DNA of 25,278 bases from the IMG/VR virus record IMGVR_UViG_3300027976_000198, positions 1 through 25,278 of that record. One strand, given 5' to 3'. The translations under genes and the position numbers were made by a program. Origin of the DNA: a virus. Position 1 is the first letter of the stretch. Each line of letters opens with the position of its first letter. The notes beneath the pieces were generated by a model that did not search any database, was not told the origin of the DNA, and was given only the letters and a program-made list of their open reading frames with translations. Below are positions 2,178 to 23,663 of the stretch, piece after piece.

Positions 2178-2253
2178 CGTTTTCTATCAGCTCCTATTGA
2201 GAGGTTGGATCACCCTGCGTCCGAGATTAACTATCGGAGGTGCGCATGTTTAT

Positions 2254-2268
2254 GGTCCCGTCGGGACT
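2254..2268 (-). other. Short stem-loop upstream of the tube gene
   Basis: GTCCC-GTC-GGGAC with one further flanking pair (A/T at the ends on the minus strand). It is one of three hairpins in the 2178-2401 intergenic stretch. Function unknown. Confidence 0.4.
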
Positions 2269-2325
2269 TTCTAGGTCTCACCCTGTAGTGCCCACCACAC
2301 GTCAATATGCCAGGTCATATGGAAA

Positions 2326-2356
2326 TGCCCCGGACCATCTCGAAGGTCACGGGGCA
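2326..2356 (-). terminator. Long stem-loop after the sheath gene, terminator-like
   Basis: TGCCCCG pairs with CGGGGCA and, after a one-base bulge, GACC pairs with GGTC around an 8-base loop: eleven pairs in total. On the minus strand it is followed by only TTT, so termination would be partial at best. It lies 46 bases past the sheath stop codon. A smaller hairpin, AGACC-CTGC-GGTCT, lies at 2389-2376. The arrangement may separate sheath and tube transcripts. No convincing ORF was found in 2178-2401. Confidence 0.45.
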
Positions 2357-2401
2357 CTCTGTGGTGAACGTAGTGAGACCGCAGGGTCTATATGGTCTGG
2401 C

Positions 2402-4771
2402 TCAGCTTGAGAACGAAACTCCTGAGTTAGTTACGACGAAATCGATCGAGATATATTCCGCGGTCTTCGTGGGCTGGAGGATGATCTTACCGAAGATGGC
2501 GTTCTTGTCCACCAGGTCCGGGGTCGTGGTGGTGGAGTCCATCACGACTCGGAACCTCTCCAGGCCCTGGTCCCGCCTGATGGCATCCAGGATCGGGTTG
2601 ACCTTGTTGACGTAGTTCTGCCAGGTCTGGCCGTTGTTCGGCTCAAAGAGCAGTTCCTTCGCCACCTGCATGACCTGCTTCTTGGCAAGGATCAGCAGTC
2701 TTCGGACGTTCACTCGGTCCAGGGCGGAGGGCCGCGCCTGCAGGGTCTTCTGCCCGTAGATCACGACACCCTCCTTGGTGAAGAAGCCGATCGGGTTGAT
2801 CTTCGCGTCGTACAGCCTATCGCGATCCTTGAAGTTCAGGCGGTCCACGACGTCCTTGATACCAAACTGCCCGAGTCCACCGCGGTTGAGACCGGCGGGG
2901 GCGAAGAAGGGCTGTGCCACCCTGTCGGTGTAGGCGATGGCACCCACGACTCCGACCGAGGCCGGCACTCGGATCATCTTACCAGGGATGAGCGGGTGTT
3001 CCATCTTCAGGTCGGGGTAATACGCCGCGGTGTAGTTGTCGTCCAGCTCGCGGTTGGTCAGCGCTGTCTCACACTCCGAGACGGTCGAACCTGTCACGTC
3101 CATGACGTAGAACATGTCCTTGCGCTCGTTCACCATGTTACGGGCGTAATCGGTGACCTTCTTGTTGTGGACGCCCGGGATCGCCAGCATGTTAGCGTCG
3201 ATGAAGTCCGGGTTACGGATGGTGTCCACGGCCCTCTTGATGGAGACGACGCCGATGTTGGTCTCGGTGGCGGTGTTGGCCAGCTCAAACTGGTGGATCG
3301 GGTTCTTCACTCGCAGATCCCAACCGTCGAACCCACCCTTGAAGGGGATGGTGAACTTCTGCATGGAGCCTGACGTGTAGATCGGCTGATATGCTGTACC
3401 GGTATTCAAATAGTAGAACCTCTGAGTACCGTTGTCGGTGTAGGAGGTCAGTCCCTTGAGTGAGAAATCCGCGTCCGAAGCGGTCATCGCGAGGTCGCCC
3501 ACAGGCATATCCGGGAAGGCCCTCATCCGGTCGGCGATGCCGCCAGAGACGAAGTTCACACCCCAGCACACGTTGCCGTTATAGTTGCCCTGGTGGTCCC
3601 TCTGGAAGACCGAGTACGGAAGAGTCGGCACTAGGTTGAGTCCACCGATGTCGGTGGCTCCGGCCGAGCCAGAGAAGCGCGCCTTCTGGAAGCCGCGGAA
3701 CCCAAAGGGCAGCGCCTCCGGCGGGAAGTTCGCAGCCTCATTGAGCTGTACGCGGATGTGGCGTGAGCCGGGCTTGCCGACCCAACTGCCCTCGGTGACC
3801 ACGAACTTGCGCTCGGTATCGTCGAAGACCTCCTTGATGTCTCCGATCCTACGGAGGATGTAGTTCTGGTCGGCCGGATCCAGACTCAGCTGAGTGTGGT
3901 TCTCCAGGATGATCGGCCTGATGTCATTGTCGTAGAAGTCACGGACCACGATGTCGAAGGTGCCGTACGGATAGAGACCGGGGTTCGGTGAGGGCCTAAT
4001 GTTGGCCACCGTGACCTTCACCTGGTCGTTGGTCGCCCGGCCGTCTGCGGTCGTGTAGATACGGAAGAGGTCGAACTCGACGCCGCCCAGGGGCTGCGAC
4101 TTGATGTACGGGGTGACCCCCGGCTCGTAGTCACGGAGGAAATCCTTCCATGACGACGAGAGGATGGCTGCCGTAAACCAACTGGCTGAGGCGACCTGCT
4201 TCTGGTAGCGATAGACCGAGGACAGGTAGTGTCCGTACGTGGAGTACTTGGTCGGATCAGTGTTCAGCACCTTCTCGATGTAGTCCGCACTTGCAGTCTG
4301 GAACGAGGCGGTCGCCGAGAAGGTCGAGCCGAAGCTGATCGTGAACCTGTTGGCATCGAGTGCCACACCCGCCACGGTCACTGTGGAGTGGATGCCGGTG
4401 TGGTGGATCTGCGCCATGATCGAGCCAGTGCTCGTGCCACCACCTGGAACGTCCGAGATGCCGATGATACCTCCGACAGTGTAGCCACTGCTGGCCGCGG
4501 TGCCATCGCTGTCACCAAGAATCCTGACAACCCTGAGGGAGTTGGAATTCTTCAGATAGTTGTACGCGGCGAGCGTCACCGGATGGACCGGGTCGATATC
4601 ACCGAACACTTCACGAAACTGGTCGAAATTGCGAATGAGGGTCGGACGGTACGCTGGACCCTTCGGGGTGGTGCCCATCAGAACGCCGCCCACCTGGGGT
4701 GAGTCGGCCTCGTTGAACGACTGGTCGACCTCGTTCGCCTGCACATTCGGTGAAGAGAAACTGTTGTTCAT
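2402..4771 (-). CDS. gp18: Tail sheath protein, T4 gp18-like
   Basis: The 789-aa product is longer than T4 gp18 (about 659 aa). The N-terminal region matches sheath proteins (GGVLMGTTPKGPAYRPTLIRN, then an AYNYLKN...LRVVRILG stretch). The conserved C-terminal sheath domain includes DRLYDAKINPIGFFTKEGVVIYGQKT, RVNVRRLLILAKKQV, LFEPNN and a final strand (EYISIDFVVTNSGV). The middle (about residues 110-330) is the variable, surface-exposed part and holds the extra length. Subunits form the contractile sleeve around the tube. It sits between gp15-like and tube genes. A GGGAGAG ribosome binding site precedes the ATG. Confidence 0.95.
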   Translation of the reverse strand: MNNSFSSPNVQANEVDQSFNEADSPQVGGVLMGTTPKGPAYRPTLIRNFDQFREVFGDIDPVHPVTLAAYNYLKNSNSLRVVRILGDSDGTAASSGYTVGGIIGISDVPGGGTSTGSIMAQIHHTGIHSTVTVAGVALDANRFTISFGSTFSATASFQTASADYIEKVLNTDPTKYSTYGHYLSSVYRYQKQVASASWFTAAILSSSWKDFLRDYEPGVTPYIKSQPLGGVEFDLFRIYTTADGRATNDQVKVTVANIRPSPNPGLYPYGTFDIVVRDFYDNDIRPIILENHTQLSLDPADQNYILRRIGDIKEVFDDTERKFVVTEGSWVGKPGSRHIRVQLNEAANFPPEALPFGFRGFQKARFSGSAGATDIGGLNLVPTLPYSVFQRDHQGNYNGNVCWGVNFVSGGIADRMRAFPDMPVGDLAMTASDADFSLKGLTSYTDNGTQRFYYLNTGTAYQPIYTSGSMQKFTIPFKGGFDGWDLRVKNPIHQFELANTATETNIGVVSIKRAVDTIRNPDFIDANMLAIPGVHNKKVTDYARNMVNERKDMFYVMDVTGSTVSECETALTNRELDDNYTAAYYPDLKMEHPLIPGKMIRVPASVGVVGAIAYTDRVAQPFFAPAGLNRGGLGQFGIKDVVDRLNFKDRDRLYDAKINPIGFFTKEGVVIYGQKTLQARPSALDRVNVRRLLILAKKQVMQVAKELLFEPNNGQTWQNYVNKVNPILDAIRRDQGLERFRVVMDSTTTTPDLVDKNAIFGKIILQPTKTAEYISIDFVVTNSGVSFSS

Positions 4772-4821: not shown

Positions 4822-4827
4822 ATTATA
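4822..4827 (-). promoter_or_regulatory. Possible -10 element before the sheath gene
   Basis: TATAAT followed by TA lies in the 77-base gap between the gp15-like and sheath genes. The same octamer TATAATTA forms the -10 region of the promoter at 1101-1129. No good -35 box is visible at the proper distance, so this is tentative. Confidence 0.25.
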
Positions 4828-4848: not shown

Positions 4849-5754
4849 TCACTTGCGGCGTATTCTCTCGCTAAGAGTTGGACCGGGGTGACTAAAAATC
4901 AGCTCGATCTCGGAAGGGTCATCCACGAAGTGACAGGACTCCTTGCCAAGCTCCAGCTTGAAAGCTGTCTGCTCGACCTGGACCGACTCCCGTTTTCCTG
5001 CGGGGTTCAGCTGAAGGAAGACGGGGACGGTAAAACGTGTCGAATATCGGAAGATACGCTCCTGGTCTGTGAACTCGTCCATGTTCCCCTCGGAGCTCAT
5101 GGAGTCGTCGAAGTAGCCGCAGACGTAGTAGTCCGACATCATGATCCGTGACTCGAAGTGGGCGTCCTCCCCAGGGACCCGCTCCCCACCACCATTGATC
5201 GATTCCGGCCTGTTCTCCCCACGTATAGGGGCCACGAAACAGGGTACATCGTAGAACTCCATCTCGGTGATGATCTTCTCCATGATCTCGTTCATATGCG
5301 TCATATAGGACGCGTGGATGACCACCTCATACGGAGCAGTCCCGTTGAACGGGAACGGGATGGTGATCACCTCATATACAACCGGGTCAGGGGCGATCGC
5401 CTGTGAGAGCAGGCGATTAGACTTCAGGACGTTCGTTTTCGGGGAGATACGTCTAGAGACCTGAAGTCTGGGGACGTTTGAACCCAGTGCTAGCATGTTG
5501 TTGGTGGGATCTAGGCCTGTCCTGGTGATGCTGATTGCGGGGAGGATCAGCTTACCGTCCTTGTCACGGATACCTGTGTTCTCACGCGACGATACCCAGC
5601 GCTCCTTTGAGCTGAACAGCACCGGTACCTTATGGCGCCTGGCGTCTGCCATCATGACATGGGCGTTCACGGTCCTGTCGAACCAGTGGAGGATCGCCCT
5701 GTCGACGTCCTCGATCCTGATGTCCTGATAGTTCTGTGGCCTAGCAGCTGTCAC
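4849..5754 (-). CDS. gp15: Tail sheath stabiliser / tail completion protein, T4 gp15-like
   Basis: The shared pattern with T4 gp15 is an early strand (KVPVLFSSKERW ~ VPITYASKEHF), ILPAISI (~ILPRINL), a PKTN motif (~FKTN), then P-x-x-V-x-YE-V-x-I and M-x-x-IMEKIITEM (~MFQIVEQIL). gp15 caps the finished tail and joins it to the neck. I chose the GTG at 5754, which overlaps the preceding stop as GTGA with AAGGA six bases upstream (301 aa). A GTG at 5775 would add seven residues. Placement between neck genes and sheath matches T4 order. The C-terminus is basic. Confidence 0.8.
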   Translation of the reverse strand: MTAARPQNYQDIRIEDVDRAILHWFDRTVNAHVMMADARRHKVPVLFSSKERWVSSRENTGIRDKDGKLILPAISITRTGLDPTNNMLALGSNVPRLQVSRRISPKTNVLKSNRLLSQAIAPDPVVYEVITIPFPFNGTAPYEVVIHASYMTHMNEIMEKIITEMEFYDVPCFVAPIRGENRPESINGGGERVPGEDAHFESRIMMSDYYVCGYFDDSMSSEGNMDEFTDQERIFRYSTRFTVPVFLQLNPAGKRESVQVEQTAFKLELGKESCHFVDDPSEIELIFSHPGPTLSERIRRK

Positions 5755-6497
5755 TCGTGGTCCTTGTTGAGCCACGCCTTCGCGGCCACCTGGGCCGCCC
5801 AGAGGTGCTCCACGGGAACGAAGTACGCGTGGTGGTGGAATTTACCGTCCACCATGGAGAGCAGGCCGAGCGCTTCACCGTTTGAGTCGAGCAGCGCCGA
5901 TCCACTCGCACCCATCCAGGTCTCGATGGAACCTACCAGGTAGCCCGAGTTCTCCATCTGTGCGGTGACGTGTCCCTCGAACACCCCGAGGCTACCATTC
6001 GGGTAACCGACGTACCAGATCGGAGTGCCGATCATACGCTGTCTCGTGGGTGTCTTGCTAAGAGTCATGTGATGTTTCGGCTTGGCACCTACGACGCCCA
6101 TGACACATGTGTCATCCGAGGACTCGTCGTGGTCGTAGAGAACGGTGCCGATGAAAGTCTTCTCGTCGTAGGTAGAGATTGTGTAGGTGATCTGCAGGAC
6201 CTTGTAACCCTGGACGAACGTACCGGGCGTTTCACAGACATGTCCGGCGGTGACGACGGTCGAGAACTCGCCCTTCGACATGAGGAACCACCCTGTGGCC
6301 ATCCCGTTTTGGGTGGACCGGGCTCCATAGATGTTCTCCACCAACATCTTCATCTCGATCTTTACGGTGGCCTGCCTGGCGTCACCGACTGAGTCAAGAT
6401 TGTCGATCCCACGGTTGCCAGATTTCGAGATCATCCAACAACCCGAACATGCGGAGACCATCAGGGCCAAAAACAGAGTCAGAAGAAATTTACGCAT
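5751..6497 (-). CDS. Exported trypsin-like serine protease, putative lipoprotein
   Basis: This 248-aa protein has a signal peptide (MRKFLLTLFLALMVSAC) with a lipobox V-S-A-C at C17. A trypsin-like fold follows: H86 in TAGHVC, D129 in DDTC and S198 in G-A-S-G-S form a plausible catalytic triad, with a later GLLSMVDG strand. It should be secreted and lipid-anchored, then cleave proteins outside the inner membrane. Substrates are unknown. It overlaps the gp14-like stop (TAATG) and is followed by gp15, so it shares their late expression. No such gene lies between 14 and 15 in T4. It could alter the infected cell envelope, or be a protease-fold adhesin without activity. Confidence 0.85.
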   Translation of the reverse strand: MRKFLLTLFLALMVSACSGCWMISKSGNRGIDNLDSVGDARQATVKIEMKMLVENIYGARSTQNGMATGWFLMSKGEFSTVVTAGHVCETPGTFVQGYKVLQITYTISTYDEKTFIGTVLYDHDESSDDTCVMGVVGAKPKHHMTLSKTPTRQRMIGTPIWYVGYPNGSLGVFEGHVTAQMENSGYLVGSIETWMGASGSALLDSNGEALGLLSMVDGKFHHHAYFVPVEHLWAAQVAAKAWLNKDHE

Positions 6498-7018
6498 TAG
6501 TCCCTCACATTTTTCGAGATCGGAGTTTGAACAGGGTGGGTGTTGTCCACCACCTCGTGAGATGAATATGATCCCCCTGCGAACACTGATTCACGTGAGG
6601 AGACACACGAGAACTTGGTCATAAGCTTGTTGTTCACCTGTCCAAACGCGAGCTGTGGGAGGGTGACGGACGATATCTCGAAGAACTTCTGTCCAAACTC
6701 GACGAAATCACCTTCGTTAGGCTTGATGTTGCGGTCGATGAGTTCGTCCGTGAGGACGTAGACTTCCAGACTGTACTCAGCATCAAGTCCAATATCCAAT
6801 GTCTTGACATCGGGGTTGTCGAACGACACGAGACAGTTCAGAGTGACAGGGGCATACCAGACTTTGTCGACCGCCTCGCCGTATACGTCGTGAGGTGTGG
6901 TCTCCTCCCTGGAGAGGGCATAGTAGATTACCTCCTGGCCGATGACCTTCTGGATCAGCTCCTTGTTCACCCTCGCGATGAAGGCGTGCTCCTTGGCTGT
7001 GATAAACTTGCGTGCCAT
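6497..7018 (-). CDS. gp14: Neck / head completion protein, probably T4 gp14-like
   Basis: The 173-aa product has the features of short gp14-type proteins of environmental T4-like phages: EVIYYALSREETTPHDVYGEAVDKVW near residues 29-54, then a beta domain with NEGDFVEFGQKFFEISSV (about 100-118) and FGQVNNKLMTKF. gp14 acts with gp13 at the head-tail junction. It is shorter than T4 gp14 (about 256 aa), so identity leans on gene order: it lies directly after the gp13-like gene and before gp15. The start MARKFITAKEH follows a 13-base gap. Confidence 0.6.
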   Translation of the reverse strand: MARKFITAKEHAFIARVNKELIQKVIGQEVIYYALSREETTPHDVYGEAVDKVWYAPVTLNCLVSFDNPDVKTLDIGLDAEYSLEVYVLTDELIDRNIKPNEGDFVEFGQKFFEISSVTLPQLAFGQVNNKLMTKFSCVSSRESVFAGGSYSSHEVVDNTHPVQTPISKNVRD

Positions 7019-7031
7019 CAGATTCTATTCA

Positions 7032-8147
7032 TCAACCTACGTAGATCATTAGCGGTGCCCGCTTTAGTGTCTCTTCGAGTGCTGAAGCCTTCTCGGCCTC
7101 CTTGATGGCAAGCTTGTCGTAGGTGAGGTCCTCGAGGGCGGCGGTGAGCTCCTGCCTAAGCCTCTCCATCTCCGCCTGTGCCTCGGACACGAGCTGGTCG
7201 CCGTCCATGGATACCTCTCCGTTGGGGACAGGGATGGATCCCATCTTTCGACGTACATACCCAAGCGTCTGTTTACACAGGGCGAGCGTCATCTGAAAGA
7301 TCCAGCGTCTGGAGATACTGTTCATCGCAGAGTACCGAATATTGCCGAATGGGAGGTTCGACATGTTCGAGACGCCGTAGCTTGCCTGGTCGTTCGCTCC
7401 CAGGACCGGCTCATCACTCAGTTGATAGGTGAACCAGAGCTTGATGTTGGCCGCCGGAATCGGCATGACCTTGAGGATGTTGTTGTGGAGCTCGTAGCTG
7501 TAGTTCGAGCGTCGAACCTTGTTAGAGACCTTGAACTGCATGCCGCGGAGGATGTCCTCCCACACCGGAAGAAGGTGAAAGACGGTCTCAGGTGTGTAGC
7601 TCTCGAACTTGAACTCGTTGTTCAGGTAGTTCATGAAGGACGTGGTACCAAAAAACCTAAACGCCGATCCAGGCGAGTAGTGGTACACGTTCTTGATAAC
7701 CATCCGGCGTGATCCTCCGTCCGATCCTGTGGGATTGGTCAGCGTCTGGAGGTCGTAGTCTTGCTGGCCGGTCGAGAGGTCGACGGACCCACTGTAATAC
7801 GGCTTCCTGGAGTTCAGGTTGGACAAGTCGTTATAGGCTTCAGCCTGTCGCCTGGCCCACTCGAGACTGAATTGTGGATATCGCTGCTCAGAGCCGACGA
7901 GGGAACCTGTAGCTGAGCCGAGGAAGGTCCCTAGGGTCGACTTTGCCTGGTACATGTTGATGATGGAGGAGAACTCCATCGTGGCCGCCTCGAAACAGGT
8001 ATAGACATCGGACGAGCTGATCTCCACCTGCAGCTGGCTCTCTCCGAGCATACGGGTGACGTATGTGAGCACCTTGTCGGCGTCAACCTGGAACTGTGTG
8101 TCTGCATCGAAGAACCCGAAGGCTGTGGAACCTGTCACAAAGCTCAT
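7032..8147 (-). CDS. gp13: Neck protein, T4 gp13-like
   Basis: The 371-aa product ends with PNGEVSMDGDQLVSEAQAEM, then ERLRQEL and a terminal VG, closely following the T4 gp13 ending (GGVTIDGQRLIEEA...EALREEL...ILVG). An N-terminal helical part with DVYTCFEAATMEFSSIINMYQ corresponds to gp13's DQIYDCIQRALELY. gp13 helps seal the packaged head and attach the tail. It is longer than T4 gp13 (309 aa). The ATG overlaps the acetyltransferase stop (ATGA) and has GGAGG upstream. The role is secure from the C-terminus and position. Confidence 0.82.
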   Translation of the reverse strand: MSFVTGSTAFGFFDADTQFQVDADKVLTYVTRMLGESQLQVEISSSDVYTCFEAATMEFSSIINMYQAKSTLGTFLGSATGSLVGSEQRYPQFSLEWARRQAEAYNDLSNLNSRKPYYSGSVDLSTGQQDYDLQTLTNPTGSDGGSRRMVIKNVYHYSPGSAFRFFGTTSFMNYLNNEFKFESYTPETVFHLLPVWEDILRGMQFKVSNKVRRSNYSYELHNNILKVMPIPAANIKLWFTYQLSDEPVLGANDQASYGVSNMSNLPFGNIRYSAMNSISRRWIFQMTLALCKQTLGYVRRKMGSIPVPNGEVSMDGDQLVSEAQAEMERLRQELTAALEDLTYDKLAIKEAEKASALEETLKRAPLMIYVG

Positions 8148-8596
8148 CTGCCGTTCCTCCCGTTAGTATCTAGAAGCCTGAGGGCCTCCATGAAGTAGAC
8201 CATTCCACCTTGGACGGCCTTTGGACCCCGTGCAAGGCCCTTTTTTCTTAGGGCATTCCACATGCTGTTGGCGTCGTGGCTTCTGATCGTATCGGACGTA
8301 AGCCCGCTACCCTTCGTCTGCAGTTTCTTATGAAACTCACGGTACGCGGCCTGCATGATGCCCTTTCCTCTGAAGGACGACTCTATGCTGGAGTCCACCA
8401 CCTTGAACCACCGTGTTCCAGGGTCATACATGGCCATGATCGTTCCGATCGGTTGTCCTTTGTACATCACCTTGGTCCGGATGGCCGGTGAACCGTCGAC
8501 TGACTTTAACGATTCATATGAGAGTGTGACCCCAGCTGGCAGCGTGGGATCAACTTCCTCATCGAGGAACGCTTCGCTGAGTGTTCTCCAGGTCAA
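8144..8596 (-). CDS. GNAT-family acetyltransferase with a predicted cleavable N-terminus
   Basis: The 150-aa product carries the GNAT acetyl-CoA motif region: strand FKVVDSSIESS, then F-R-G-K-G-I (residues 75-80) with MQAAYREF, then SD (101-102) and NSMWNALRKKG (110-120), the usual GNAT motif B. The substrate is unknown; related enzymes acetylate proteins or small molecules. It starts at TTG (8596) with MTWRTLSE, giving an L-S-E|A site after residue 8 that matches the T4 prohead protease rule. This suggests it is packaged in the head and trimmed. It lies among structural genes, coupled to gp13 by ATGA. The TTG start is the weak point. Confidence 0.75.
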   Translation of the reverse strand: MTWRTLSEAFLDEEVDPTLPAGVTLSYESLKSVDGSPAIRTKVMYKGQPIGTIMAMYDPGTRWFKVVDSSIESSFRGKGIMQAAYREFHKKLQTKGSGLTSDTIRSHDANSMWNALRKKGLARGPKAVQGGMVYFMEALRLLDTNGRNGR

Positions 8597-8956: not shown

Positions 8957-10513
8957 TCACAGGCGGGTCCCTGTATCCCGCTCAAACATACGGAGGTATT
9001 TCTGGAGGTCGTCCACCGACCATTTCCCAGCCTTCACAGGCAGGCCCTTCGTCCATTCGACGGACCTCTGTACCTTCTCAGGTTCTGATATCCGTCCGTT
9101 ACGCTCATATTCAAGTGACACCGGTGTGGTATTGATGCTGGGGAGTGACCGGGTCTTCTTCCTGTTGATGATCTGTGTCCTCTCCTTGGAGTCCCTTGAT
9201 CCGAGGAGGAAGATCTGCTTCCTACCCTCCTTTCTGGCCAGGTCGACAATGTCTGATAACGCGCCGTCACCTCTGATCTTCACCGTGGGGCGCTCCACCT
9301 CACCCTGAGGTTCGTCCTTGGGAGGACTAGGTTGCTTACCCTTGACCCATGCTGAGGGAATCTGAACAGGCTGTCCTATGTCTTTCTCGTCCTTCCACCA
9401 CCGCTGTCCACCGGCGGACTTTGGCATGGCTGGGGCGTCGTTGTCCAGGGTTTTTCCTGTGACCGGGTCGAACCTGCCCTTTTTCTGTACCCACCTGGGC
9501 TCGTCCTTCTTTGGCTCACCCTGCGGCATTTGCCACATATCGGATTTGCCACGGCCGGGCTGCTCGGGGTCTGCCGGCTTGGGGTCGGTCTTGTCGATGC
9601 CATGCCTCTTGCGCAGGGCACTCCACGCGTCATTGTCGTCGTCTGCTGCCGTGGCTTTGGCGAGGGCGCCGGTCGGGAGCTGTGAGTCCACCCTCACCTT
9701 GCCTGACTTTATGACCTTCTGTGAGTCGTGGATCACTTCCTCGTCGAGGTCCTTGGCACGGATGGCGTAGAAGCTACCACCCTCGGCCAGCACGATGATG
9801 TCCTCAGGATCCACACCTCCCGGAAGCTGAGGCTTTTGGACTTCCTTGGTGGGTTCTCCCCTCTTGAGCTTTCCGGTCAGCGGTTCCAGGACGATCCCTG
9901 TCTGCTGGTAGAAGCTGTCGGCCGCCTGCTCCGCTGCAGCCACGCTGGATCGTCCTGAGATGAAGTCAAAGAACGACTTGTCCGGCTCGCTCTGTGTGAC
10001 CGTCATCGGCATATCGTCGTCAACGAACCTGGTCCCCCACTGGTTAAGCAGACCCTGGTCGATGTCGTCAGCGAAGCCTTTCTGCATCTCCGGGCGGCTG
10101 GTGGTCGTGGTGCGCTTAGGGACATCAGAGGAGTCGCGCGGCCTGAACATGGAGTACACGCCGTATAGTGTCCACTCTGGTAGCTTTGCACCCTCGAGGT
10201 GGTTGAACGATCTGGCGTGGTACATGAGGGTCTTCCCTTGTACCTCGATCTTCCTCCAACCCTTGTCGATCATGTAGCGTAGGAGTCTGGAACTCTGTGG
10301 GTCCGTAGGCAGCGTGACGAGCTGCCAGATCGTGTGTCTGAGCGCAGGATTGTCGGTGATGCTGTTCACCATCTCCCGCGGGACATTGCGCTGGGCCGTG
10401 AGGGTGTTCACCTTCATGGCCTTGGACTTCACCCTCTTTGCAGGGGCCTCGTTGACAGGAACAGATGAGGTCTCATCGATCTGACCGAATGCCTCCGCTA
10501 GTCGCTTGGTCAC
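8957..10513 (-). CDS. Large hypothetical head-region protein with predicted L-A-E|A processing, 518 aa
   Basis: The start is GTG at 10513 with AGGAG about 11 bases upstream. The N-terminus MTKRLAEAF contains L-A-E|A at residue 7, a T4 prohead protease type site. A small ordered domain follows (about 60-125, including a YHARSFNHLEGAKLPEW segment). A long Lys/Pro/Asp-rich, probably disordered region (about 280-420) comes next, then a C-terminal domain (about 420-518) ending in WSVDDLQKYLRMFERDTG. It may be an internal protein co-packaged with DNA. No enzyme motif was identified. It is the first gene after the capsid terminator, so it probably has its own promoter or depends on read-through. Confidence 0.85.
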   Translation of the reverse strand: MTKRLAEAFGQIDETSSVPVNEAPAKRVKSKAMKVNTLTAQRNVPREMVNSITDNPALRHTIWQLVTLPTDPQSSRLLRYMIDKGWRKIEVQGKTLMYHARSFNHLEGAKLPEWTLYGVYSMFRPRDSSDVPKRTTTTSRPEMQKGFADDIDQGLLNQWGTRFVDDDMPMTVTQSEPDKSFFDFISGRSSVAAAEQAADSFYQQTGIVLEPLTGKLKRGEPTKEVQKPQLPGGVDPEDIIVLAEGGSFYAIRAKDLDEEVIHDSQKVIKSGKVRVDSQLPTGALAKATAADDDNDAWSALRKRHGIDKTDPKPADPEQPGRGKSDMWQMPQGEPKKDEPRWVQKKGRFDPVTGKTLDNDAPAMPKSAGGQRWWKDEKDIGQPVQIPSAWVKGKQPSPPKDEPQGEVERPTVKIRGDGALSDIVDLARKEGRKQIFLLGSRDSKERTQIINRKKTRSLPSINTTPVSLEYERNGRISEPEKVQRSVEWTKGLPVKAGKWSVDDLQKYLRMFERDTGTRL

Positions 10514-10564
10514 AATGTAAGTAGCTCCTGCTCTGTCAGAGTACCTGACCTGGAAATAGTTGCA

Positions 10565-10596
10565 GAAAAACCCCGCAGTTTCCTTTGGGGTTTTTC
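10565..10596 (-). terminator. Intrinsic terminator after the capsid gene
   Basis: GAAAAACCCC pairs with GGGGTTTTTC (10 bp) around a 12-base loop. The T-run on the minus strand and the matching A-run make it effective on either strand. It lies 54 bases past the capsid stop and should end the capsid transcript. Confidence 0.85.
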
Positions 10597-14428: not shown

Positions 14429-14889
14429 CAGCCACCCATCAGCCGCTTGTTCAATTTTCTCATATGGTTGAGGTCCACCCCGAGGTTCTCGAGGGGGATG
14501 CTTGTCATGCCACTGTGGTCGTTGTCCGGGGCGAGCGGTTGGGTACCCTCGTAGATGTCACGCATGGGATTATCCTTGGCTAACAGCGCCTTGGCCGCCC
14601 CGGCGGCCTTACGGTTGGCTGAAGTCGGTGGGATAAGTGCTTGGAGGTTCGATGACCTGGTCCGTTTCAAAGGTAGTGAGTCCGGTTCCTCGTGTTCGAC
14701 CTCCTCCACGACCTGCTGACGTCTGGTGGGTATCGAGGAGTTCGGGTTGACAGTGTTCTCCACGAGCGAGCGGATGTAGACCTCGCCGATCTGCTTCATC
14801 ACGACCTCATGGATCTTCTTCTCGATGATCTCCGAGACCAGCTCTGCGACGATACCTCGGAGGGTCTCCTTTAGTTCACTGCGCTTCAC
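14428..14889 (-). CDS. Hypothetical head-region protein with helical N-terminus, 153 aa
   Basis: The first about 45 residues (MKRSELKETLRGIVAELVSE, then IIEKKIHEVVMKQIGEVYIR) form a continuous amphipathic helix, probably a coiled coil. The rest is likely disordered, with an acidic patch (VVEEVEHEEPD) and an Ala/Lys segment. I-V-A-E-L and L-K-E-T are loose matches to the prohead protease rule. The N-terminal layout resembles the 97-aa protein at 13617. It is coupled by ATGA to the protease upstream. A core protein role is inferred from position only. Confidence 0.75.
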   Translation of the reverse strand: MKRSELKETLRGIVAELVSEIIEKKIHEVVMKQIGEVYIRSLVENTVNPNSSIPTRRQQVVEEVEHEEPDSLPLKRTRSSNLQALIPPTSANRKAAGAAKALLAKDNPMRDIYEGTQPLAPDNDHSGMTSIPLENLGVDLNHMRKLNKRLMGG

Positions 14890-15494
14890 TTTATGTGTCC
14901 CTTTCTGGCGAGCGCATCATTCACACGACGGAACACCCGGTCCTGCTTAGAGACCACCACGTCCCTGTCCCATCCCTCCTTAAGATAGAGGTAGGCACCA
15001 GGTGTACTGGGTTCACTGACGATGTCGAACGCCACAAGTTGGAAGTCATCTTGGACGATGTCACAGCCGGTGTTGTCCTTGTTGGTTGAGCCGACGCCAC
15101 GCGAGGAGATTCCGATCGTGACACCACTCTCGATGAGCGTCTCCAGGATCTTTCCCTTCGGGGTCCCAAGGACCTCGATGACACCGGACAGGTCGTTACC
15201 TGTCCAAGCCATCTCCCTGATGATATGGGAGACTCGCTCCAACGAGACCGTCGAAGTGTCCGGGTGGTCCAGCTCTCCGACCGCGCGGTTCTCACGCACG
15301 GCCTTCTGATAGTTATCTGCCTCACGAACCAGGATACTACGGGGGTAGATTCGGTTGTTCTGGTTCTTTGTCTCGGCCTTCTGGATGATGCCCCGCAGCA
15401 TCAGCTTTCCGCCATTGAGAGCACGATCCTCCTTGATGAGGGCGCTGGAGTACTCACATTGAATGTACTCTCTGAGAAGCTGCTTTCCACTCAT
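14886..15494 (-). CDS. gp21: Prohead core protease, T4 gp21-like
   Basis: The 202-aa product has the gp21 signature: strand GGKLMLRGIIQKAET, NRIYPRSIL, GELDHPDTS with catalytic H77, and TIGISSRGVGS with the nucleophile S130 or S131. VAFDIVSEPS (residues 155-163) follows the catalytic core. It degrades the scaffold and trims capsid and internal proteins after L/I-x-E. A zymogen-type self-cleavage could occur at ALIKE22|D or in the C-terminal tail. It sits between internal protein genes and scaffold as in T4. Overlaps are ATGA at both ends. Confidence 0.93.
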   Translation of the reverse strand: MSGKQLLREYIQCEYSSALIKEDRALNGGKLMLRGIIQKAETKNQNNRIYPRSILVREADNYQKAVRENRAVGELDHPDTSTVSLERVSHIIREMAWTGNDLSGVIEVLGTPKGKILETLIESGVTIGISSRGVGSTNKDNTGCDIVQDDFQLVAFDIVSEPSTPGAYLYLKEGWDRDVVVSKQDRVFRRVNDALARKGHIK

Positions 15495-22004: not shown

Positions 22005-22307
22005 TCACCTCACATACCAGAACTTCGCCACGGCCCCATCTAGCCCTGGGCCTTCCACCACGACCTGATGTATACCCTCCACAGCGTCCATAGGAAACGT
22101 CATGAACACTTTCATCTTGGTTCCCCACCTCTCCACCCTTGTCGGAACGAATGAGGACCCCGGATTTAAGACTCTTACCTCCAAATCATGGCAATTCTTA
22201 TGCTTTTTGGGGCTAAAGATCACCCGAAAGGTGTGTTCTCCCTGTCCGAGGACAATCTCAGGCAGCTCTGTGACGATCAGCTCGTCAGAGTGTAGGTGAC
22301 TCCTCAT
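22005..22307 (-). CDS. Small beta-sandwich-like protein, 100 aa
   Basis: I chose the ATG at 22307, which overlaps the upstream stop (ATGA); an ATG at 22325 would add six residues. The sequence alternates beta strands: HTFRVIFSPKKH, DLEVRVLNPGSSFVPTRVER, TKMKVFMTFPMDAVEGIHQV and GAVAKFWYVR. This spacing resembles a single Ig-like or similar beta-sandwich domain. No signal peptide is present. The role is unknown. It is part of the accessory group between the gp46-like gene and terminase. Confidence 0.7.
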   Translation of the reverse strand: MRSHLHSDELIVTELPEIVLGQGEHTFRVIFSPKKHKNCHDLEVRVLNPGSSFVPTRVERWGTKMKVFMTFPMDAVEGIHQVVVEGPGLDGAVAKFWYVR

Positions 22308-23116
22308 CGGTCGAACGGCCTCCATGAGATACCAACCCCACATGACCAGGAGACCTCGTCATCTAGATACGCCGAGCACTTTGGACCGACAGCAAGTTTG
22401 TCTCCGTACTTAACGCCCACCCCGAGGGACGGCTTACCAAGGAATCCCACGTCGAGATCTGTGGAGATCTTGTCCCGCCACGTGATAAGCTCGAGTTTCC
22501 TGTCCACTGCCGACACGTTCACGTCAACCTCGAACCCGTCCTCACTAGACGACACCACAGTGGACCAGTCACCATCCTTGTCCTGGGTCAGGGCGACACC
22601 CAGGATGAGTGGGCGTGACTGTGTGACGGCCACGAACGCCTCCGGCGGACTCGTAATGGTGTACCCATCGACCCTGAACGGTCCGAATTCCTTCTTGAAA
22701 GTGACCTTCAAACGTTCGATGCCAGGTGTGGTACCGGGTTCTGTGGTCTGACCCTCGAAGATCTCCTGGTATGCTTCGGCCATGCCCTCGTACTTCTTCC
22801 TCCATGTCACAGACAGCTGTGTGTAGTGTACGATCGTCTTCTTCTGAGACTCGATGGTGGCCTTCAGGTCGGCGATCTCCTTCCTGGTGGTGTCCAGGAC
22901 GGTACTCACATCACCCAACTCGACAACCTTCTTCTGAAAGATGCCCTCCTTGATCTCTATCGTGTCCTCCTGGATGGAGATCACCCTGTATAGCTCGTCC
23001 CGTTCCCTCTCTAGCTCTCGTTTCTGGAGGTAGAAAGTGAGAAAGCCGATCGCGACGAGCAACGCGAGCACCAGAAATACGATGTACTTGAAGTACTTCT
23101 TGAATTTGTCTAACAT
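22304..23116 (-). CDS. Membrane-anchored coiled-coil protein, 270 aa; spanin-like candidate
   Basis: I chose the ATG at 23116, with GAGGG six bases upstream; the ATG at 23122 overlaps the previous stop (ATGA) and adds two residues. A transmembrane helix (YIVFLVLALLVAIGFLTFYL) follows a basic N-terminus, so the rest probably lies outside the cytoplasm. Residues about 33-115 are a coiled coil (LERERDELYRV, then ADLKATIESQKKTIV). The C-terminal part is beta-rich and ends SWSCGVGISWRPF, with two cysteines. This layout recalls inner-membrane spanins (Rz) but is longer. The preceding two-helix membrane protein supports a lysis or envelope role. It is an inference. Confidence 0.75.
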   Translation of the reverse strand: MLDKFKKYFKYIVFLVLALLVAIGFLTFYLQKRELERERDELYRVISIQEDTIEIKEGIFQKKVVELGDVSTVLDTTRKEIADLKATIESQKKTIVHYTQLSVTWRKKYEGMAEAYQEIFEGQTTEPGTTPGIERLKVTFKKEFGPFRVDGYTITSPPEAFVAVTQSRPLILGVALTQDKDGDWSTVVSSSEDGFEVDVNVSAVDRKLELITWRDKISTDLDVGFLGKPSLGVGVKYGDKLAVGPKCSAYLDDEVSWSCGVGISWRPFDR

Positions 23117-23118
23117 CT

Positions 23119-23385
23119 TCATCCCTCGTTGCTCTTGACACGTTCAACCTCGACCTGAGTGTTGAACTTCTTGTCCGTGTGCTTCCGTGCGACGTATCCG
23201 GCCGACGGGACCGCCAGCAGGACCGCAGCCAGTTCAGCGTCGGGCTGTGCGATACTCAGCGTCCAACTCAACATGGTGAGATCGGTACCACCGAACACCA
23301 CCTTGATCATCACAACCACGAACGCAATCACCATCATGGTGAAGGATGCATCCGGCTTACCATCGGTGTTCTTAAACCACCTCAT
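23119..23385 (-). CDS. Two-helix membrane protein, 88 aa; holin candidate
   Basis: After MRWFKNTDGKPD come two hydrophobic segments: FTMMVIAFVVVMIKVVFGG (about 15-33) and AELAAVLLAVPSAGYVA (about 50-66). A charged C-terminal tail follows (RKHTDKKF...VERVKSNEG). Size, two segments and charged tail fit class II-type holins or other small phage membrane proteins. The start overlaps the GroES-like stop (TAATG) and the next gene is a membrane-anchored coiled-coil protein. No endolysin is in the window, so a lysis cassette is only suggested. Confidence 0.7.
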   Translation of the reverse strand: MRWFKNTDGKPDASFTMMVIAFVVVMIKVVFGGTDLTMLSWTLSIAQPDAELAAVLLAVPSAGYVARKHTDKKFNTQVEVERVKSNEG

Positions 23386-23663
23386 TAGCTGATCCTCGCG
23401 ATGACGTCACGGGCCCGAGCGAAGATGAAGTCCTCCCCATTGGCCTTCCCCTCGACAGTTGTGCGTGTGTCGTAGATGATCAGGTCACCGACCGTAGCTG
23501 TCACGTTGTAGTTGAAGTCCGCGTCACCCTCCGGAGGAAGGGCCGTGATCCTCCCGACACGGTATGCGTCGGTGTTCCGTGCGGTCTCGGGGATAAACAT
23601 GAGACCCTTCTTGGTCTCCTCAACAACCTCAACGGCGATCCAATCGTTCTGTGGGATGATCAT
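23385..23663 (-). CDS. GroES-like co-chaperonin
   Basis: At 92 aa it has the GroES size. The order is an opening strand (DWIAVEVVEE), the mobile-loop motif G-L-M-F-I-P-E-T-A at about residues 20-28 (compare G-I-V-I-P-D-T-A in bacterial GroES), YRVGRITALP for G-x-V-x-A-V-G, then TVGDLIIYD and the closing EDFIFARARDVIARI. GroES caps GroEL; phage forms such as T4 gp31 help fold the capsid protein. Unlike gp31 it looks like ordinary GroES. A strong AAGGAGG lies upstream. It sits in the accessory group rather than in the capsid block. Confidence 0.82.
   Translation of the reverse strand: MIIPQNDWIAVEVVEETKKGLMFIPETARNTDAYRVGRITALPPEGDADFNYNVTATVGDLIIYDTRTTVEGKANGEDFIFARARDVIARIS

Follow-up and report, generated by a model that had tools for sequence, protein, structure and literature searches.

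The protease gene and its neighbours

The window analysed here is a virus record of IMG/VR, 25,278 bases long, and comes from a T4-like phage remote from the cultured ones; its terminase shares at most about 40% identity with those of Flavobacterium phage immuto and Microcystis phage Mel-JY01, and its gp23 is about 34-42% identical to that of the closest records. Within its neck block lies a gene for a predicted exported serine protease (Table 1), whose start has one base in common with the stop of the upstream gp14-type gene (TAATG), and whose TGA falls inside the start region of the downstream gp15 gene. The listed start of the latter is a GTG at 5775, and a second GTG at 5754-5752 would give a 4-base overlap with the protease gene (GTGA). 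That the ORF arose by chance is ruled out by its conservation.

Table 1. Positions of the protease gene, of features in its product and of other structural genes in the window
Feature	Positions	Strand	Basis or remark
Predicted exported trypsin-fold serine protease lipoprotein	5751-6497	-	248 aa, ATG start
Predicted signal peptide, residues 1-16 (MRKFLLTLFLALMVSA)	6450-6497	-	Pfam LPAM_1 over residues 1-18; Arg/Lys, then hydrophobic run; helix in the model
Cys17, predicted lipidated residue; Ser18 at +2	6447-6449	-	Sequence; lipobox VSA/C17
Catalytic His86 in VVTAGHVCE	6240-6242	-	Invariant alignment column
Cys88, candidate disulfide partner of Cys131	6234-6236	-	Cys co-occurrence in homologues
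Catalytic Asp129 in SDDTCVM	6111-6113	-	Invariant alignment column
Cys131, candidate disulfide partner of Cys88	6105-6107	-	Cys co-occurrence in homologues
Catalytic Ser198 in MGASGSAL	5904-5906	-	Invariant alignment column
gp14-type neck gene (head closure Hc2)	6497-7018	-	Directly upstream; synteny, PHROG 679 in relatives
gp15-type tail terminator gene	4849-5775	-	Downstream overlap, alternative start at 5754; T4-gp15_tss in relatives; model
gp13-type adaptor (Ad2) gene	7032-8147	-	PHROG 211, 2e-8
Tail sheath gp18	2402-4771	-	Phage_sheath_1, 1.5e-7
gp21-like gene	14886-15494

The placement between neck genes 14 and 15, proposed in an earlier note on this DNA, agrees with the profiles and synteny of the gp13, gp14, gp15 and gp18 neighbours. 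Behind the names gp14 and gp15 stand synteny, weakly matching profiles and one model of low confidence: PHROG 679 ('head closure Hc2') weakly matches two of the 12 aligned gp14 members, the T4-gp15_tss profile matches five of the 12 aligned gp15 members (best 5.5e-5), and the PDB entries that the gp15 model (pLDDT 58) matches first belong to the T4 neck complex and to T4 gp15 (4hud, 4huh and 9mkb). Searches of PDB sequences with the gp14 and gp15 profiles gave no match. A scan near the block for the T4-type late promoter (TATAAATA) found only a one-mismatch site at 4827, the same scan upstream of stand-alone copies of the protease gene found nothing consistent, and scans for sigma-70 promoters and terminators gave matches at chance level. 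An ORF resembling GNAT acetyltransferases (8144-8596; Pfam E 0.0015, slightly below the cut-off) adjoins the gp13 gene.

Protease domain and export signal

The protein matches the Pfam family Trypsin_2 (PF13365) at 3.2e-12 (47.9 bits against a gathering score of 27.6), as do 33 of 34 homologues at E up to 0.01, and it has the His-Asp-Ser order of these peptidases. The triad named in the earlier note (H86, D129 and S198) was exactly right: the three residues are invariant in an alignment of 34 sequences, and the triad is intact in 35 of 35 distinct homologues and in two more (37 of 37). It is kept down to about 17-29% identity with the window protein, which argues that proteolysis is what selection keeps. 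The AlphaFold model computed from the 34-sequence alignment (pLDDT 91) consists of an N-terminal helix followed by a mostly-strand domain with a chymotrypsin-type fold, and its closest relatives in the PDB are the protease domains of DegQ, HtrA1 and DegS (TM about 0.63; Foldseek against DegQ, E 9e-12 and TM 0.63). The description 'trypsin-like' is borne out for the fold by this structure search, with the nearest structures being of the HtrA/DegS type; the Arg/Lys specificity of S1A trypsins, which goes with an Asp189-type pocket, is not supported by anything found, and the residue six positions before Ser198, Glu192, varies among the homologues. From sequence and model, the gene product is most likely a serine protease with the trypsin/HtrA fold that is active.

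The peptidases HtrA, DegP, DegQ and DegS (MEROPS S1C) share with the viral window protein the fold of the protease domain, the order of the triad, the GxSG motif and an envelope location, predicted for the window protein, at about 16% identity. As HtrA, DegP and DegS also provide the closest folds and profiles, the protease might act in envelope quality control or nutrition, either clearing misfolded periplasmic proteins in the manner of HtrA or releasing amino acids under envelope stress. We consider such a role unlikely: no PDZ domain was found, the protease domain ends near the C-terminus and is followed by no long extension, the protein has, unlike DegP, a predicted lipid anchor, and sister phages do not have it.

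The signal peptide with a lipobox claimed in the earlier note was upheld by a match to the Pfam lipoprotein signal LPAM_1, which at 20.3 bits just passes the cut-off of 20, and by the homologues. A strict rule finds a lipobox in 24 of 35 homologues; one fixed rule that also admits signal- or anchor-type N-termini covers 34 of the 35. In the same loci this rule assigns an exported-type N-terminus to 44 of the 363 other ORFs with a length of 150 aa or more (12%). Both extra homologues beyond the 35 have a lipobox, so 36 of 37 distinct homologues start with a membrane anchor or with a signal peptide, of the lipoprotein type or not. The only exception is the copy in L013 (L-numbers label the loci or sequences of relatives), a fusion in which the protease follows a cytosolic segment and a transmembrane stretch, the latter lying further in. 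Among the likely genes of the window, only the protease gene and the two lysis-like genes (22304-23385) encode a strongly hydrophobic N-terminal segment after positive charge.

Judging from these signals, the protease is predicted to be lipid-anchored in the host envelope, and probably at the outer membrane, because the residue at +2 from Cys17 is Ser. According to the Lol rule of E. coli, Ser at +2 is not an inner-membrane retention signal, and Asp is never found at +2 after the lipobox Cys among the homologues. Cys88 and Cys131 (H-x-C...D-x-C) are jointly present or jointly absent in every homologue, a pattern that would fit a disulfide formed outside the cytoplasm; since the absences are confined to one subclade and L056, it represents few events, and a single subclade that lost the pair once or twice might account for it.

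The location among the neck genes, and long fibre-like ORFs beside the protease in some relatives (L048, L063 and L068), would agree with a virion or assembly protein that has a cytoplasmic task in neck or fibre maturation and whose hydrophobic N-terminus is not a signal peptide. In T4, the prohead protease gp21 is a cytoplasmic head-maturation enzyme, and in the window a gp21-like gene shares one structural region with the neck protease, from which it differs in being a separate gene with another fold. We regard a virion role as very improbable and as largely refuted by the export signals in nearly all homologues, as virions are assembled in the cytoplasm, which the protease is predicted to leave; the possible disulfide, the absence of the protease from sister phages with the same neck genes and the occurrence of homologues far from neck genes also argue against it.

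Distribution and inheritance

Loci of relatives were collected by scans with gp23, gp15, gp14 and the protease itself, their ORFs were called, and the loci were then searched with profiles of the protease, gp14 and gp15. The position described in the earlier note is shared by relatives: the protease gene lies at the gp14-gp15 junction in 21 distinct IMG/VR sequences (the window, L003, L005, L009, L011, L038, L043, L048, L050-L053, L056-L058, L061, L063, L066, L067, L087 and L110), in most of which the genes are joined by start/stop overlaps or short gaps. In L048, L056, L063, L067 and L110 the protease-bearing junction also contains other ORFs. Seven relatives of the gp15 set (L004, L007, L012, L060, L062, L071 and L073) have gp14 joined to gp15 with no protease gene between them, and as L004, L012, L060, L062, L071 and L073 are members of the lineage, the protease is dispensable. 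In the wider gp14 set, gp14 is followed directly by gp15 in 43 distinct loci, mostly more distant ones. The simplest reading of this distribution across close and more distant loci is that the insert was derived in one lineage and lost again in some of its members; the direction of change is left unfixed by the trees.

The junction itself resembles an insertion hot spot. It contains endonuclease-like ORFs without a Pfam match in L056 (5139-6002, GIY-YIG-like) and L059 (3092-3595, HNH-like by eye), the latter in place of the protease, long fibre-like or collagen-like ORFs in L048 (1349-5119), L063 (3246-5147) and L068 (3478-5139), and, in the more distant relative L108 (2336-4420), two other ORFs of 263 and 430 aa between gp14 and gp15. 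In L009, the portal gene (gp20) is interrupted twice by segments with intein-like ends (594-1510 and 2247-3064), which are likely inteins.

In its lineage the protease gene is inherited vertically with its block. Groups of the protease tree reappear in the gp15 tree, and pairwise identities of the protease correlate with those of gp15 (r = 0.83). Each of the 66 pairs shows the protease to be less conserved than gp14 as well as gp15, with a mean pairwise identity of 27% against 53% for gp14 and 49% for gp15. This combination of lower identity and correlation with gp15 is what vertical inheritance together with host-driven change would be expected to produce, although faster divergence is common to any exported protein. 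The window protease itself forms a long branch, grouped with the copy in L013, which is a different phage (100/98 support). This L013 gene (5818-6705) is the closest to that of the window in the tree, no other gene of the window matches the L013 locus, and a gene swap at this point of the tree is possible.

Other homologues lie outside the neck. In L016, L017 and L020 the gene is on the opposite strand and adjoins a PIN-PhoH gene, and in L019, L021-L023, L025 and L029-L037, part of which were examined, it has other contexts. The stand-alone opposite-strand copies beside PhoH or gp23 look like a host-acting cargo gene and not like a part of the virion. This isolated, cargo-like occurrence in several phages, along with the patchy presence and fast divergence of the protease, would suit a counter-defence role, in which the enzyme destroys membrane or periplasmic sensors of anti-phage systems or hostile periplasmic host factors. 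We consider this role quite unlikely, as in the lineage of the window the gene belongs to a presumed late block, and PADLOC matches (LmuA, RT-Protease_XI and Avs1b) were rejected as reflecting shared trypsin-like domains only.

Of two scans of genome contigs, the first gave no match and the second gave one Legionellales MAG contig (L023, PBNF01000027). Its homologue (9797-10594) groups with viral copies, for which reason the contig may be a mis-binned virus and no bacterial donor was identified. Searches with tblastn of 50,697 phage records gave no match to the proteases of the window, L005, L011 and L031, and only marginal matches (E 0.1-0.9) to that of L021. PHROG 9683, the viral family of the Pootjesviridae-type phage protease and annotated as 'protease', matches the window protein alone at E 0.005 and 24 of 34 homologues (best 1e-16), which may reflect the shared fold only.

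A distant signal-anchored trypsin-like protease is encoded next to gp23 in cultured Pootjesviridae of Rhizobium and Sinorhizobium, namely Sinorhizobium phage phiM9 (gene 102) and Rhizobium phages P10VF (gene 80), RHph_N34 (gp044), RL38J1 and AF3, and is mentioned in PMC10783043. The phiM9 homologue was reached via a paper and a fold match to Rhizobium phage AF3, and not by sequence search; it matches 26 phage records, nearly all of phages of rhizobia, and profile comparison of our homologues with it by hhalign gave 96.6%, which again may reflect the shared fold only. Like the window protease, the Pootjesviridae protein belongs to T4-superfamily phages, has about 230 aa, a hydrophobic N-terminus, the H/D/S triad and a structural gene as its neighbour; unlike it, it has neither lipobox nor Cys pair, is encoded on the opposite strand near gp23, outside the neck block, and shows 16% identity in the profile alignment. 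We know of no counterpart of the neck protease lipoprotein in T4 itself, as the earlier note had stated; the T4 superfamily does have counterparts, the distant exported homologues of the Pootjesviridae, and the protein described here is a predicted lipidated, neck-located variant of a kind already known by annotation but unstudied. In the literature on phage-encoded exported proteases we found no functional report. Exported trypsin-like proteases turn up repeatedly among tailed phages as a strongly conserved accessory, and their annotation goes no further than 'protease' or 'hypothetical'.

Possible roles in the infected cell

The picture drawn in the earlier note, in which a block of cytoplasmic assembly genes includes one for a serine protease that is exported, lipid-anchored and apparently active, is supported as a prediction, and the three functions offered there (blocking superinfection by modifying the host surface, removing receptors at release, aiding lysis) are not separable by sequence. 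Very probably the protease is exported, active and acts on the host envelope. Sec would export it and, once lipidated at Cys17, it would stay in the envelope, probably at the outer membrane; translation together with the neck genes in a shared operon would make it late and abundant. From there it could cut one or more host envelope proteins. Removal of, or damage to, receptors and other proteins of the surface would keep cells filled with progeny from being re-infected and released progeny from sticking to envelope debris. An envelope-anchored late serine protease with the clearing of receptors and the surface as its most likely use is our best explanation, which as a whole we hold tentatively, a little short of even probability.

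That such clearing is the main use is a proposal that we hold with still less confidence, as rather less likely than not, but prefer to the other uses because a late, anchored, fast-evolving, dispensable and host-facing protein fits it, and because it has a precedent in Llp of T5, a phage lipoprotein that disables the receptor and spares progeny (PMC9586334). Llp and Cor are likewise phage-encoded outer-membrane lipoproteins with a possibly similar biological role, but the known receptor blockers are small, non-enzymatic and expressed early (PMC9586334), whereas the window encodes a protease of 248 aa in a presumed late block, which counts against receptor clearing. Nor is the protein of the Llp/Cor type, as PHROG 1119 (Cor) matches it at E 0.09 over residues 1-80 only. 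The narrower idea of a late receptor-destroying enzyme, comparable to a neuraminidase but proteolytic, which a T4-like lineage has kept at one locus, is rather doubtful. If receptors are cut, the protease would represent an enzymatic route to both a block of superinfection and an escape from trapping in debris.

The main rival to receptor clearing, somewhat unlikely in our view, is a lysis helper that would cut envelope tethers, weaken the outer membrane, act as a partner of or substitute for spanins and speed up release, adding a new outer-membrane step to lysis. The presumed late operon and the predicted lipid anchor in the envelope would suit such a protein, as would the L013 fusion protein, where the protease comes after cytosolic and transmembrane parts. 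Against it, a protease produced all through the late phase would require some form of restraint, and the gene is not in a recognisable lysis cassette of the window, which has a separate lysis-like pair. Spanins are small outer-membrane lipoproteins or proteins with a transmembrane segment and a coiled coil, whereas the window protein has a globular protease fold. Both readings, receptor clearing and lysis, can be tested with Sinorhizobium phage phiM9, which is in culture and carries a distant homologue. The lysis-like pair comprises a candidate Rz-like spanin (22304-23122; PHROG 739, E 0.003) and a hydrophobic holin-like ORF (23119-23385), and is adjoined by a GroES-like ORF (PHROG 3188, E 0.005), the whole region extending over 22304-23663.
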